Both the position numbers and the translations under genes were made by a program. A model generated the notes under the pieces. The model was not told the DNA's origin. It searched no databases and saw only the letters and a list, made by a program, of their open reading frames with translations. From Corynebacterium sphenisci DSM 44792 (GTDB lineage: Bacteria; Actinomycetota; Actinomycetes; Mycobacteriales; Mycobacteriaceae), in the NCBI RefSeq assembly GCF_001941505.1, contig NZ_CP009248.1, positions 2,108,001 to 2,172,000 on the forward strand: 64,000 bases of DNA, written 5' to 3'. Shown one piece after another: positions 22,511-26,996 of the stretch. Positions within the stretch are counted from its first letter, which is position 1. Each line of letters starts with the position of its first letter.

Positions 22511-22776
22511 GGTGCATCAGGTCCCCTCCCCGGGGCCCGGCCCCCTCCTCCATGGGGCCGCCCCCGGGGCGGGGCGAAAGAGGGAATCCGGTGCGAATCC
22601 GGAGCTGTCCCGCAGCGGTCAGCTGGAACGAAAGCCGTCAGATGGCACTGGGAGGCCACTCCCGGGAAGCGACGGCCGGTAGGAAGACCGCCCGCGTGGG
22701 GTTCTGCCGAACAGGCAGTCGTCAAGGCCCCCGCGGGTCGGCCCGCCAGCGAGCCCGAATACCTGCCTGGTGTGCC
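22511..22776 (+). ncRNA. Cobalamin riboswitch 1, upstream of the MetE N-domain gene
   Basis: Class-I B12 aptamer. Conserved core: GGGAATCCGGTGCGAATCCGG at about 22582-22602 (written across the G-rich box), then CTGTCCCGCAGCGGTC, and AGGAAGACCGCC at about 22681. The 3' box is GCGAGCCCGAATACCTGCC. The closing helix is 10 bp (22511-22520 GGTGCATCAG with 22767-22776 CTGGTGTGCC, wobble pairs included). The region to 22919 is the expression platform and holds a GACAGGCG/CGCCTGTC hairpin. B12 binding normally switches such genes off. Confidence 0.92.
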
Positions 22777-22919
22777 GGATCGACCGGTCCGGCCCAGGGG
22801 ACGCCCGTGGACAGGCGTGACGTGGAAGAAACCGGCGGGGCCCGCGACAGCCCCGTCCTCGGCGATCGCGCCTGTCCATGGGTCGTCCCGTCACTTGACG
22901 AGGATCAAGGAGACCCCTC

Positions 22920-24056
22920 ATGCACGCCGATCGACCCCTCTTCGCCTCCACCGTCGGGGGCTTCCCGCGCAATGGGCCGCACCGCGAGCTCGAGCGCGCC
23001 ATCACCGCCCACCGCGCGGACCCGGACGATCCGGACGCCGCGGCCGCGCTGGCGGACACGGCCGGGCGGCTCAACGCCTCCCCCGTCGCCCGGGCCACCG
23101 CCGCCGGGCTGGAGTCGGTGCCGGTGGGCACCTTCTCCTTCGGCGACCGGATGCTCGACGCCGCGGTGCTCTGCGGCGCCCTGGGCCCCGGGCCCGGCGC
23201 CGGGGCGCCGGGCCCGGCGGGGCTGCCCGCCTGGTTGGGCGACTACCTCGACGCCCGGGAGCGCCGGCCGATGCGCCGCTGGTTCGGCACCCCCCTGGAG
23301 TACGCGGTGCCGGCCCTGGACCCGGGGCGCCCCCTGGCCGCTGACCCCGGGTTCCTGCTGGACCAGGTGCGCGCCGCGCGCCGGCTGCACGCCCCGGCCC
23401 GGGCGGTGCTGATGGGCCCGGCGACCTTCCTGGCCCTGGCCGAGGACGCCCCGCTGCATCGGCTCGCCGAGCTGGTGGGGGTGCACCGCCGGATCCTGGA
23501 CGCGCTGGCCGGCACCGGGGTGCGCTGGGTGCAGTACGACGAGCCGATCCTCGCCGCCGCCGGGGCCCCGGCCGCCGCGCCCGGGGCGCTGCGGCGGCTG
23601 GTCGAGCACGCCCACGGCCGGGGCCTGCGGGTGCTGGTGAACACCTTCCGGGGCGACGCCGCCCGGGCGGTGGGCGCCCTCGCCGGGGTCGGCGCCGACG
23701 CCGTCGGCCTGGACCTGGTCACCTCCGGGCTGCCGGAGCTGCGGCCCCTGCCGGAGCGGACCCTGGTGGCCGCCGGGGTGATCGACGCGCTGAGCCCCTG
23801 GCGCACCGATCTGGACGCCGCCCTGGGTCTGCTCGCCCCGATCGCGGCGACCCGCCCGGTGGCGGCGTCGACCTCGGCGCCGCTGGTGCACCTGCCCTGG
23901 TCGGTGGCCGCCGAGGAGCCTTCGGCGCGGCTGCGCCCCCGCCTGGCCTACGCCGCGGAGAAGGTCGCCGAGGCGGTGGACCTGGGCCGGGCGCTGCACT
24001 ACCCGGGGGCGAAGCGCCGCCCGGAGTTCCTGCGCTCCCGGCGGGCCCGCGCCTGA
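22920..24056 (+). CDS. Stand-alone N-terminal domain of cobalamin-independent methionine synthase (MetE-N)
   Basis: A 378-residue protein matching only the N-terminal half of MetE. The start 'STVGGFPRNGPHRELERAI' and 'WFGTPLEYAVP', 'VLMGPATFLALAE', 'VRWVQYDEPIL' (residues 202-211) and 'LVAAGVIDALSPWRTDL' align in order with MetE residues 1 to about 390. The C-terminal catalytic barrel of MetE, with zinc ligands His/Cys/Glu/Cys, is absent: the frame ends in a stop followed by a terminator hairpin, and no catalytic half occurs elsewhere in the window. RBS AAGGAG lies 7 nt before ATG. It is under a B12 riboswitch. It may be a truncated remnant, half of a split enzyme, or a new partner protein. 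Confidence 0.85.
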   Translation: MHADRPLFASTVGGFPRNGPHRELERAITAHRADPDDPDAAAALADTAGRLNASPVARATAAGLESVPVGTFSFGDRMLDAAVLCGALGPGPGAGAPGPAGLPAWLGDYLDARERRPMRRWFGTPLEYAVPALDPGRPLAADPGFLLDQVRAARRLHAPARAVLMGPATFLALAEDAPLHRLAELVGVHRRILDALAGTGVRWVQYDEPILAAAGAPAAAPGALRRLVEHAHGRGLRVLVNTFRGDAARAVGALAGVGADAVGLDLVTSGLPELRPLPERTLVAAGVIDALSPWRTDLDAALGLLAPIAATRPVAASTSAPLVHLPWSVAAEEPSARLRPRLAYAAEKVAEAVDLGRALHYPGAKRRPEFLRSRRARA

Positions 24057-24071
24057 GCCGGGGCCCCGGCC

Positions 24072-24104
24072 GCGCCGCCGCACCCGGTCCGGGTGCGGCG
24101 GCGC
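24072..24104. terminator. Bidirectional terminator between MetE-N and cbiO
   Basis: Near-perfect stem of about 15 bp, GCGCCGCCGCACCCG with CGGGTGCGGCGGCGC and a tiny loop. It lies between convergent genes. Confidence 0.7.
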
Positions 24105-24108
24105 CCGT

Positions 24109-24924
24109 TCAGCCCCCGGCGCCGGGATCGTCGCCGGGGTCGAGCAGGTCCTCCGGCCGGGTCACCGATCGGCCGAGCGCCGCGGAGACCAGCGGCGCCC
24201 ATGGCGGGGTGAGCCGGGCCCGGGCGGCCAGCGCGGGGTCGGCGAGCAGCTCCGCGGCGGGGCCGGTCCGCGCCCGGCCGTCGACCAGCACCGCGGCATG
24301 CTCGGCGAACTCCCAGGCGCTGTCCACGTCATGGGTGGCCATCACCACCGCGGTGCCGGCGGCGTGCAGCCGGCCCAGGGTGGCCATCAGCCGCCGGGTG
24401 GCGGCCGGGTCCAGCCCGGCGGTGGGCTCGTCGAGCAGCAGCACCTCCGGCTCCATGGCCAGCGCCCCGGCGAGGGCGACCCGCTTGCGCTGGCCGAAGG
24501 AGAGCTGGTGCGGCACCCGGTCGGCGAGGTGGGCGACCTCCGCGGCCGCCATCGCCGCGGCCACCCGCCGGTCGATCTCGGCGCGGTCCAGGCCGAGGTT
24601 GGCCGGCCCGTAGGAGACGTCCGCGGCCACCGTGGTGGCGAAGAGCTGGTCATCGGGGTCCTGCAGCACCAGCTGCACCCGGCGGCGCAGCCGGTTGCGG
24701 CCCCGCCGGTCCCGGCGGTAGGGCGCCCCGTCCAGGGTCAGCCGCCCGGCGGCCGGGTCGATCGCCCCGGCGAGCAGCCGCAGCAGCGTGGATTTGCCGG
24801 AGCCGTTGGCGCCGAGCACCGCCAGCCGGTCGGCGACCGCGATATCGAGGTCCACCCCGCGCAGCACCTCCCGGCCGGGATGCCGGAAGACCACCCCGCG
24901 GGCGGAGAGGATCGGCCCGGCCAT
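24109..24924 (-). CDS. cbiO: Cobalt ECF transporter ATPase CbiO
   Basis: ATP-binding subunit of the energy-coupling-factor cobalt importer; 271 residues. Walker A 'GANGSGKST' near residue 40, Q-loop 'QLVLQDPDDQLF', ABC signature 'LSFGQRKR', Walker B 'VLLLDEPTAGLD', switch 'ATHD'. The last ~40 residues are a short extension. It overlaps cbiQ by the ATGA stop/start and ends the cbiMNQO operon. Confidence 0.93.
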   Translation of the reverse strand: MAGPILSARGVVFRHPGREVLRGVDLDIAVADRLAVLGANGSGKSTLLRLLAGAIDPAAGRLTLDGAPYRRDRRGRNRLRRRVQLVLQDPDDQLFATTVAADVSYGPANLGLDRAEIDRRVAAAMAAAEVAHLADRVPHQLSFGQRKRVALAGALAMEPEVLLLDEPTAGLDPAATRRLMATLGRLHAAGTAVVMATHDVDSAWEFAEHAAVLVDGRARTGPAAELLADPALAARARLTPPWAPLVSAALGRSVTRPEDLLDPGDDPGAGG

Positions 24925-25649
24925 CAGACCACCGCCCACAGCGCGGCCACCGCGGCCAGGGTCGCCGCGGCGGCGGCGAGGAAGCGGGCGTCCCGGGGCC
25001 GGGCGGCGGCGACCACCGCGGTGGCCCCGGGTTCCGCGCGCAGCGCCAGGCCCTCCTGCAGCCGGCGGGCCCGGCCGATGGCGAGCACGAACAGGTTCGC
25101 CGACTGGGCGGCGACCCCGGTGAGCAGGCCGCGGCGGGTGCGGTGGCCCAGCCGCTGCGCCTGGGCCTCGTGCATGGACCGCGCCGACCCGGCGAGCACC
25201 CCGATCATCCGGTAGGTCAGCTCCGCGACCTGGGACACCGCCGCGGGCACGCCATGCCGGCCGAGCCAGTTCAGCAGCTCCGCCAGCGGGGTGGTCAGGG
25301 CGAAGGCCACGGTGCAGCCCATCCCGGCGATGGAGCGGGCGACGACCTCCGCGGCCCGCCGGGGCCCGGTGGGCGAGAAGGCCAGCCCGTCGGCGCCGAC
25401 GGAGAACAGCAGCGGGCCGATGCCGAGCACCACGAAGGCCGCGGGCGCGGCGAGCAGCACCAGGTACAGCCGGGCCGGCACCCGGGCCAGCCGGGCGGCG
25501 ACCACGGCGCAGAGCAGCACCGCCGGGGCCACCGGCCAGGGCGGCCCGGCCACCGCCAGCAGCAGCAGCCCGCCGAAGAGCAGGATCTTCTCGCCGACGT
25601 TGCGCCGGGCCCAGCGGCTGCGCGCCGCCGCGGCCTCGAGCGCGTTCAC
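24924..25649 (-). CDS. cbiQ: Cobalt ECF transporter T component CbiQ
   Basis: Transmembrane coupling protein of the cobalt importer; 241 residues with about five membrane segments. The coupling-helix motif 'RSMHEAQAQRLG' and the later 'GRARRLQEGLALR' are the paired Ala-Arg-Gly-type signatures of EcfT proteins. The GTG start overlaps the cbiN stop (GTGA), and its stop overlaps the cbiO start. Confidence 0.9.
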   Translation of the reverse strand: MNALEAAAARSRWARRNVGEKILLFGGLLLLAVAGPPWPVAPAVLLCAVVAARLARVPARLYLVLLAAPAAFVVLGIGPLLFSVGADGLAFSPTGPRRAAEVVARSIAGMGCTVAFALTTPLAELLNWLGRHGVPAAVSQVAELTYRMIGVLAGSARSMHEAQAQRLGHRTRRGLLTGVAAQSANLFVLAIGRARRLQEGLALRAEPGATAVVAAARPRDARFLAAAAATLAAVAALWAVV

Positions 25650-25978
25650 CGCCCCCGGCGGCCGGCGCCGCCCCGGTACCAGCCCAGGGCGTAGCCGAGC
25701 ACCCCGCCGCCGATGCCGGCCTGCAGGGCGAACAGGCCCGATTCGACCTCGCCGGGCAGCTCCCCGGTGATCGACTCGAACCAGGGCTCGTAGCCGGGGT
25801 GCACCTCGGCGACGACGTCCTCGGCGGCGCCGTCGGTGCCGCCGAAGGGCTCCTCGGCCTCCGGGTCGCCGAAGTTCAGCAGCATCGGGAAGGCCGCGAG
25901 CACGACCGTGGCGCCCACCAGGGCCGCGGTGACCAGGGGGTTGTTGCGCCGGGTGGCACGATCCGGGGTGGCGCTCAT
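25646..25978 (-). CDS. cbiN: Cobalt transporter accessory protein CbiN
   Basis: Small 110-residue two-helix subunit that interacts with CbiM for cobalt loading. Segment 1 is residues 14-34 ([20 protein letters not shown]); segment 2 is near 85-100 ([19 protein letters not shown]). Between them lies an acidic extracytoplasmic loop with '[11 protein letters not shown]', typical of CbiN. ATGA overlap with cbiM. Confidence 0.88.
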
Positions 25979-26712
25979 CGGGCCACCGCCGTGTCCGCGG
26001 CCGCCATATCGGCGGTGACCACCTCGGCGCCGGCGTCATCGAGCCGGTCCCCGGGGCGCAGCACGCCCAGGTCGAGCAGTTCGGCCGGGGCGACCGCGCG
26101 CAGGGCGCGCACCACCAGCACGGTGAGCAGGCCCTCGATCACGGCCAGCGGGATCTGGGTGATCGCGAAGATGCCCATGAAGGCCACCAGGGCGCCGCCG
26201 ACGCCGCCGGGCTCGGCGGGGTGCGCCAGCGCCAGCTGCGCGGAGGTCACCACGTAGGTGGAGAGATCCGCGACGAAGGCGGCGGCGAACACCGCCGGCA
26301 GCAGCCCCCCGCCGAGCCGGCGGGTGAGCAGGTAGGCCCCGTAGCCCAGCCAGGGGCCGACCACCGCCATGGAGAAGGCGTTCGCGCCGAGGGTGGTGAT
26401 CCCGCCGTGGGCGAGCAGCAGCGCCTGGAAGAGCAGCACCACCGTGCCCAGCAGCGCCATCACCGGGGGCCGGAAGAGCACCGCGCCGAAGCCGGTGCCG
26501 GTGGGGTGGGAGGTGGATCCGGTCACCGAGGGGATCTTCAGCGCCGAGAGCACGAAGGTGAAGGCGCCGGCGGCGCCGAGCAGCACCCCCGAGCCGGGAT
26601 GTTCCTTGAGTACGCGTCCGGCCCGCCAGGCGCCGTGCGCCACGAAGGGGGCGGCGGCCGCCCCCCACGCGATGCAGTGGCCCAGGGGCAGGAAGCCTTC
26701 CGCGATATGCAT
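25975..26712 (-). CDS. cbiM: Cobalt-specific S component CbiM
   Basis: Substrate-binding membrane component for Co2+ import; 245 residues. It starts MHIAEGFLP, the family N-terminus whose Met-amine/His2 chelates the metal ion. Further conserved segments are '[25 protein letters not shown]', with metal-site His, and '[36 protein letters not shown]'. The C-terminus after residue 225 is a short acidic tail. It is the first gene of the operon and sits behind a B12 riboswitch, so cobalt uptake should fall when B12 is plentiful. Confidence 0.94.
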
Positions 26713-26792
26713 GGCCGTCGTTCTGCCTTGTCCGCGCGGCCGGCACCTCGCGGCCGCGCCCGTTCCTCCGCGGGCGCCGGTCGGCGCCGCGG

Positions 26793-26984
26793 TCGGATCC
26801 CGGCCGGTCTCCTGGCTGACGGGGCACCCGCGGGCCGCGGGATCCGCCCGGCGCCTTCCCGGCCGCCGGCGGGCCTTTGCCATCGGCCCGCCGCCGCCGG
26901 TGGCCTCCGCCGGGCGGGGTCACCCCGATCACAGTGGCGAGGGCCGCCGCCCATTCGCAGGGCGTTCCCGGGCACCGTGATCCA
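26793..26984 (-). ncRNA. Cobalamin riboswitch 2, upstream of cbiMNQO
   Basis: Minus-strand class-I B12 aptamer. G-rich core 'CCGGGAACGCCCTGCGAATGGGC' (shown across 26950-26975), then 'CGGCCCTCGCCACTGTGATC', and the 3' box 'GTCAGCCAGGAGACCGGCC' at about 26802-26820. Boundaries are approximate. It controls cobalt uptake. Confidence 0.92.
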
Positions 26985-26990
26985 CCACCC

Positions 26991-26996
26991 AGGATA
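26991..26996 (-). promoter_or_regulatory. -10 of the cbiMNQO promoter
   Basis: TATCCT on the minus strand, giving a start about 7 nt further on, at the 5' edge of riboswitch 2. It is the same hexamer as the MetE-N promoter. Confidence 0.5.

Follow-up and report, generated by a model that had tools for sequence, protein, structure and literature searches.

The locus and its leader RNA

The window, that is, the whole stretch of 64,000 nucleotides of the Corynebacterium sphenisci DSM 44792 genome that was analysed, carries at positions 22511-24056 a riboswitch and an open reading frame together. The reading frame (22920..24056, + strand) encodes a stand-alone MetE N-terminal (beta/alpha)8 barrel of 378 aa, hereafter the orphan, assigned from its match to PF08267, its AlphaFold2 model and its matches in the PDB (see below). 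It opens with ATG and runs unbroken to its stop codon, and the sequence AAGGAG ends 7 nt upstream of the start, which confirms the good ribosome-binding site and intact frame reported in an earlier note on this DNA. Upstream lies a cobalamin riboswitch aptamer (RF00174; 22538..22784, + strand), which covers the full model (positions 1-189) and at 73.9 bits exceeds the gathering score of 31.5 bits; it also aligns to the corresponding leaders at four related loci. The interval between the aptamer and the ribosome-binding site is predicted to form a long stem-loop (22798..22889, + strand) in the minimum free energy (MFE) fold, and this stem-loop may serve as the expression platform (22785-22945, MFE −87.2 kcal/mol, z −4.6). 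It is followed by a conserved leader element, CTTGACGAGGATCAAGGAG (22894..22912, + strand), which includes AAGGAG and was found in all five aligned leaders with a single variable base. By eye, a small inverted repeat in this element overlaps the ribosome-binding site; this repeat is absent from the MFE fold.

The next gene, cbiO, is on the opposite strand and its end lies 52 nt past the orphan stop. The two convergent genes are separated by a hairpin with perfect 15-bp GC pairing (24072..24104, + strand; z −4.4 over 24057-24112), which is terminator-like in its fold but has no T-run and was not among the results of a terminator consensus scan that requires one; the terminator noted after the gene thus stands as a hairpin and not as a canonical T-tailed element. 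Downstream of the orphan, a search for the catalytic half of MetE found none. The cobalt importer genes (24109-26883, − strand), with CbiM identified by Pfam, run toward the orphan, and a cobalamin riboswitch (26785-26994, − strand, 33.7 bits) lies upstream of them, which places two convergent B12-riboswitch units at this locus.

Domain assignment and predicted fold

The orphan matches PF08267 over residues 11-310 with 138.9 bits (cut-off 27), while PF01717, the catalytic barrel, reaches 12.9 bits, under its cut-off of 21. Two NCBIfam models of MetE match across their first half, both under their whole-enzyme cut-offs. In a PDB search at E 0.1, ten of the eleven distinct sequences were MetE chains that aligned best within their first half, and the eleventh was a nucleotidyl transferase at E 0.0028. 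The AlphaFold2 model, built from a 35-row alignment, is a complete barrel (pLDDT 90.6, pTM 0.91) and its 29 best matches in the PDB are all MetE chains; since 32 of the 35 rows were MetE, such a fold was to be expected and does not demonstrate that the protein is stable. An earlier structure model from a 7-row alignment (pLDDT 61) was set aside. The two Pfam comparisons bear out the claim that the protein corresponds to the first half of MetE and contains no catalytic half, and the PF08267 and RF00174 scores together confirm a free MetE N-domain behind a B12 riboswitch.

The PF01717 search of the 2.59 Mb, one-contig genome returned one place, inside a whole MetE with matches spanning 1760759-1763038, and no stand-alone MetE C-domain. 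A complete MetH is encoded in the genome as well.

A complete metE in the same slot of related genomes

Among 242 genomes of the genus, 204 gave a match at E 1e-6, and the best matches outside the window's genome were three complete MetE (in genomes G056, G070 and G071). These three loci share with the window the gene order murA, cobalamin adenosyltransferase, GerE-type regulator, echA, metE, cbiOQNM, cysK, cysE, with metE in the place of the orphan, and their metE riboswitches score 93.6-98.5 bits. Pfam backs the neighbour labels adenosyltransferase, enoyl-CoA hydratase, ABC ATPase, CbiM and PLP enzyme; murA, the GerE type, cbiN, cbiQ and cysE are what we take these genes to be from reading their sequences. 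Six loci of the genus were compared besides the window genome's own MetE locus (G056, G070, G071, Corynebacterium sputi, G169 and G163), of which the G169 locus ends at a contig end and the G163 locus stood outside the gene-order comparison.

Corynebacterium sputi DSM 45148 (G208) has an N barrel only in this slot, behind a riboswitch of 103.7 bits; no MetE C half was found in the slot, and the frame is broken by one stop and one frame shift. A second, whole MetE with a riboswitch of 54.2 bits is encoded elsewhere in that genome, and the MetE of G208 matches the C. sputi protein at all of 768 compared positions. The riboswitch of the broken C. sputi gene scores higher than that of the window, and no cbi genes lie within the 12 kb fetched around the C. 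sputi locus (L034 4732-6488).

Protein searches, which scored the best 7997 and the best 7995 candidates, added two intact relatives. The first, P0122, came from a profile search and is a second intact orphan of 417 aa that matches PF08267 only. It is 79% identical (130/165) to the second piece of the C. sputi copy, with which it shares its final 11 residues, and the window's copy stops in the same SRRA region; compared with the window orphan, 46% of the 374 aligned positions are identical, with gaps in 47 columns (about 42-47% across comparisons). The second, P0001, is 378 aa long, equal in length to the window orphan, and identical to it at 367 of 378 positions (97.1%). The same profile search also gave P0123, a 641-aa protein with both domains, and P0124, which has 368 aa and carries the label partial. 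In a scan for related loci, none of the 517 pattern matches was confirmed with the single orphan as query, and with the orphan alignment one of 37 was confirmed, namely C. sputi. A family-level search found matches in 321 of 401 genomes. Among the matches listed for genus and family, only the window's genome and C. sputi have an N barrel that lacks its C half; short PF08267 frames in G169, G254 and G578 run up to the end of a contig, and the other places among the matches listed, leaving aside these short-frame cases, G000 and G208, have frames of at least 708 aa (genus) or at least 724 aa (family). Whole MetE is spread over several frames in G163 (L035 1769-4202), and in G129 (G129:C1:735961-738278) the N and C halves occupy neighbouring frames (583 and 551 aa); assembly error, a pseudogene and a true split are candidate causes in these two cases.

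We built two midpoint-rooted trees, the first with the C. sputi orphan represented by its first piece, and the second with P0122 and P0001 instead. The stand-alone barrels cluster apart from everything else (support 100) and group with the G056-type MetE (support 100), and the whole MetE proteins of the window's genome and of C. sputi form a group of their own (support 100). Judged by synteny and by these trees, the orphan is a cut-down copy of a complete B12-riboswitch metE. The deletion of the 3' half seems to be common to the window's lineage, C. sputi and P0122, and a single truncation before these lineages split would be the simplest account, although the linker may instead have been cut independently in each. 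We rejected a frameshift in the window, or a fault of its assembly, as the origin of the short frame, P0001 being 378 aa as well and P0122 and C. sputi having a similarly placed end. The earlier note had named a frameshift or sequencing error, with the catalytic half lying just downstream in relatives, as what would refute its reading; the whole gene is indeed present there in G056, G070 and G071, but the cause in the window's lineage is a deletion.

Residue changes in the stand-alone barrels

At 78 sites conserved to at least 95% in 32 MetE rows, the MetE residue is kept in both intact orphans at 43 and lost in both at 19 (29 lost in the window orphan, 25 in P0122). The doubly lost sites lie mostly in beta-alpha loops, with loop limits taken from the secondary structure of the model (18 of 19, against 58 of 78 overall; Fisher p 0.03). 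For the losses of the window orphan alone the enrichment has a Fisher p of 0.11, and enrichment at the top face is modest. Residues 108-132, a segment picked after viewing the data, hold nine of the 19 doubly lost sites against 17 of the 78 overall (p 0.004). Twelve of the 19 fall in the beta2-alpha2 hairpin and the beta8-alpha8 loop, as the strands are read from the model. Passages of the T. maritima MetE structure paper describe a long beta2-alpha2 hairpin and a beta8-alpha8 loop that contact the other barrel (PMC539065); judging by position, some of the lost residues once faced the catalytic barrel.

The same source names Arg15, Lys18 and Lys104 of T. maritima MetE as residues that touch folate (PMC539065). 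Their equivalents were placed by eye through the RELK and TKWF motifs rather than through an alignment with T. maritima, and each is invariant in the 32-row MetE alignment. First, the equivalent of Lys18, the folate-tail contact, is Lys in 32 of 32 rows, Glu in the window orphan (Glu25 codon, 22992..22994, + strand) and Pro in P0122. Second, the equivalent of Lys104, also Lys in all 32 rows, is Arg in the window orphan and Met in P0122; in the window it belongs to a remodelled TKWFDTNYH motif at residues 119-127 (23274..23300, + strand). Third, the equivalent of Arg15 (Arg in 32 of 32) is kept in the window orphan and is His in P0122. The orphan therefore does not have the set of three N-barrel folate contacts that would mark it as a member of MetE.

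The zinc/homocysteine site of MetE, together with most or many of the folate contacts, is placed in the C barrel by the sections of PMC539065 that treat them, where the name "folate-binding domain" for the N barrel is called inappropriate. With this arrangement, and with the Lys18 and Lys104 equivalents gone, the suggestion that the orphan binds folate or homocysteine is unlikely to hold for binding in the manner of MetE. We take the orphan to be no methionine synthase, and it is most likely not a methyl-folate binder. A zinc site restored in the N barrel was considered and rejected: the corresponding positions, as far as they can be derived from the text of PMC539065, are Asn241, Phe243, Asp265 and Ala320 in the window orphan and Gln, Tyr, Asp and Cys in P0122. 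Taken as a MetE relative, the orphan is like the N-terminal barrel (PF08267) in fold, sequence family, riboswitch and its position in the slot of the relatives' complete metE; unlike MetE, it ends in the linker region, has no C barrel and hence no zinc/homocysteine site, lost the two lysine equivalents, and has losses clustering at the top of the barrel.

Retention or decay

The strongest rival to a retained gene is that the orphan is a relic, a redundant duplicate of metE that was halved and is decaying, with a frame still open since stops arise slowly in 74% GC DNA. We consider this a possible but somewhat doubtful explanation. It gains from the whole MetE and MetH, which make the orphan redundant, and from the fast evolution of its lineage: the root-to-tip distance of the orphan lineage is 1.42, while most MetE in the tree fall within 0.57-0.97 (other long values being 1.49 for G129 and 1.04-1.08 for G137 and the C. 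sputi MetE), and the orphan shares 47% identity with its C. sputi counterpart in the best piece, whereas neighbouring genes share 71-87%. The loss of 29 of the 78 MetE-conserved sites speaks in the same direction. Of 84 sites in an initial set, chosen for their conservation across 33 MetE, 57 are retained by the window orphan and 52 by the broken copy of C. sputi; whole MetE controls retain 84/85, 84/84, 81/89, 84/90, 79/87 and 70/91 (77-100%). Since a broken copy retains a similar share, site retention cannot separate a live copy from a dead one.

Composition argues against a relic. The GC content of the orphan by codon position, including the stop, is 0.839/0.594/0.974, and GC3 without the stop is 369/378 (0.976), still at the level of working genes (mean of the window's called genes 0.955). 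The DNA outside called genes has a GC content of 0.745, a value that rests on a crude gene caller which missed some genes (e.g. cbiQ) and so does not describe non-coding DNA alone; in four short intergenic stretches the GC content was 0.648, 0.711, 0.757 and 0.923. We simulated neutral evolution from the present sequence, without indels, at equilibrium GC of 0.70-0.80 and with 400 runs per setting. At 20% or 30% amino-acid change (six settings), mean GC3 fell to 0.900-0.942 with maxima of at most 0.971. At 10% change the maxima were 0.971-0.981, so that a recent loss of function would fit the observed GC3 too. The open frame was rejected as proof of selection, being weak evidence: 16-36% of the neutral runs keep it at 30% change, and its survival in a relic is thus not improbable.

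The intact relatives weigh further against decay. P0001 is nearly identical to the window orphan, and a second full-length version, P0122, persists at far greater divergence. For comparison, the window genome's own MetE and its counterpart P0002 are identical at 347 of 369 N-barrel positions (22 differences) and differ at 2 of 329 C-barrel positions; if P0001 and P0002, which come from different records, lie at similar strain distances, the orphan would be at least as well conserved as the N barrel of the whole MetE in its genome. Moreover, identity between the window orphan and P0122 declines with MetE conservation, from the most conserved quartile to the most variable (53/84, 35/83, 44/86, 21/85; Spearman 0.235), where neutral drift since the orphan split would be expected to give a flat profile, alignment error and composition aside. 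This gradient is shallower than in the working pairs P0002-P0005 (79/84 to 32/85; 0.443) and G056-G169 (69/72 to 46/72; 0.320). Against G056, the quartile identity of P0122 goes from 0.68 to 0.31, and that of the window orphan takes the shallower course of 0.62, 0.53, 0.57 and 0.45 (p 0.09). Frame lesions were found in C. sputi and none in the window, P0001 and P0122 are full-length predicted proteins, and codon-position composition is kept in the orphan, so the view that it is not an obvious pseudogene is borne out. Overall, these signs of selection suggest that the orphan was retained for some use and not left to decay.

Proposed origin and role

We lean toward a truncated and domesticated metE, in which a non-catalytic barrel, repressed by B12, was kept under its old switch. 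A complete riboswitch metE in this slot lost its C half through a cut within the inter-barrel linker region, presumably once, in a common ancestor, as the tree and the shared ends suggest. Both the window's species and C. sputi have a further, distinct metE at another place. The N barrel that was left has retained its riboswitch, its ribosome-binding site and its predicted fold, while it changed residues that touch folate in MetE and many loop residues at the top of the barrel. With ample cobamide, the riboswitch would hold the orphan gene off; under cobamide shortage, the barrel would be made alongside MetE and the cobalt importer, and it could then act as a free-standing, non-catalytic protein that has its own ligand or partner. 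A more specific form of this proposal, in which the former enzyme half is made only under cobamide shortage and its freed barrel top binds a novel ligand or partner from the metabolism of cobamide, sulfur or one-carbon units, is offered as a tentative and rather unlikely refinement.

The N barrel of MetE is described in passages of PMC539065 as a duplicated catalytic barrel with its sites obliterated, and the reason for its recruitment is treated there as an open question. A truncated, domesticated metE would amount to the reverse experiment made by evolution, with the N barrel left alone with its regulator, its frame unbroken in two diverged lineages but disrupted in a third. If functional, it would offer a direct route to what the N barrel is capable of once separated from the catalytic half, and it would add a non-enzyme to the genes behind B12 riboswitches.

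An accessory role, in which the free barrel binds the C barrel or linker of MetE and tunes or protects MetE or MetH when cobamide is short, appears improbable. The predicted fold equals that of MetE's own N barrel, and the second metE has the same kind of riboswitch (54.2 bits in C. sputi; 30.4 bits in the window's genome, under the gathering score), as such a role would favour; however, the hairpin and loop that make the barrel contact in T. maritima MetE, as passages of PMC539065 describe it, hold in the model 12 of the 19 doubly lost sites. A split MetE, with the orphan as one half and the catalytic half encoded elsewhere, can be set aside: the orphan has the form of the N components that parts of PMC7857596 describe in archaea and one Sulfobacillus, being no longer than 400 aa and scoring above the PF08267 cut-off, but no separate C component was found in the genome, whose sole PF01717 place lies inside the whole MetE, and the Lys18 and Lys104 equivalents are lost.

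Relation to known systems and to other riboswitches of the genome

The earlier note had proposed half of a split enzyme or a partner of a core-MetE, and both were rejected on the sole PF01717 place, in the whole MetE, and the presence of MetH. The orphan resembles the split MetE N components (e.g. PF1268) in that it is a free-standing protein with PF08267 and no more than 400 aa, but differs from those presented in the relevant parts of PMC7857596 in that no C component was found in its genome, which has a whole MetE and MetH, and in its origin from a fused MetE that was truncated. Core-MetE and the MesA-MesD proteins, as outlined in parts of PMC7005905 and PMC7857596, are similar in being about half the size of MetE, yet they are homologues of the opposite half, the catalytic C barrel. 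B12-riboswitch control in C. amycolatum has the same two targets, cobamide-independent methionine synthesis and cobalt transport; in contrast to the present locus, the main text does not contain the word "truncated", and its passages on this control mention no half enzyme (PMC11774034). In the open-licence literature, we found no description of a riboswitch-linked MetE N barrel that stands alone.

Besides the leader of the own metE, the RF00174 matches of the window's genome lie before the orphan and before cbiM. The match preceding the whole metE (L040 11377-11432, − strand) is just under the gathering score, spans 56 nt and covers part of the aptamer model, and is perhaps a shortened or divergent cobalamin riboswitch.
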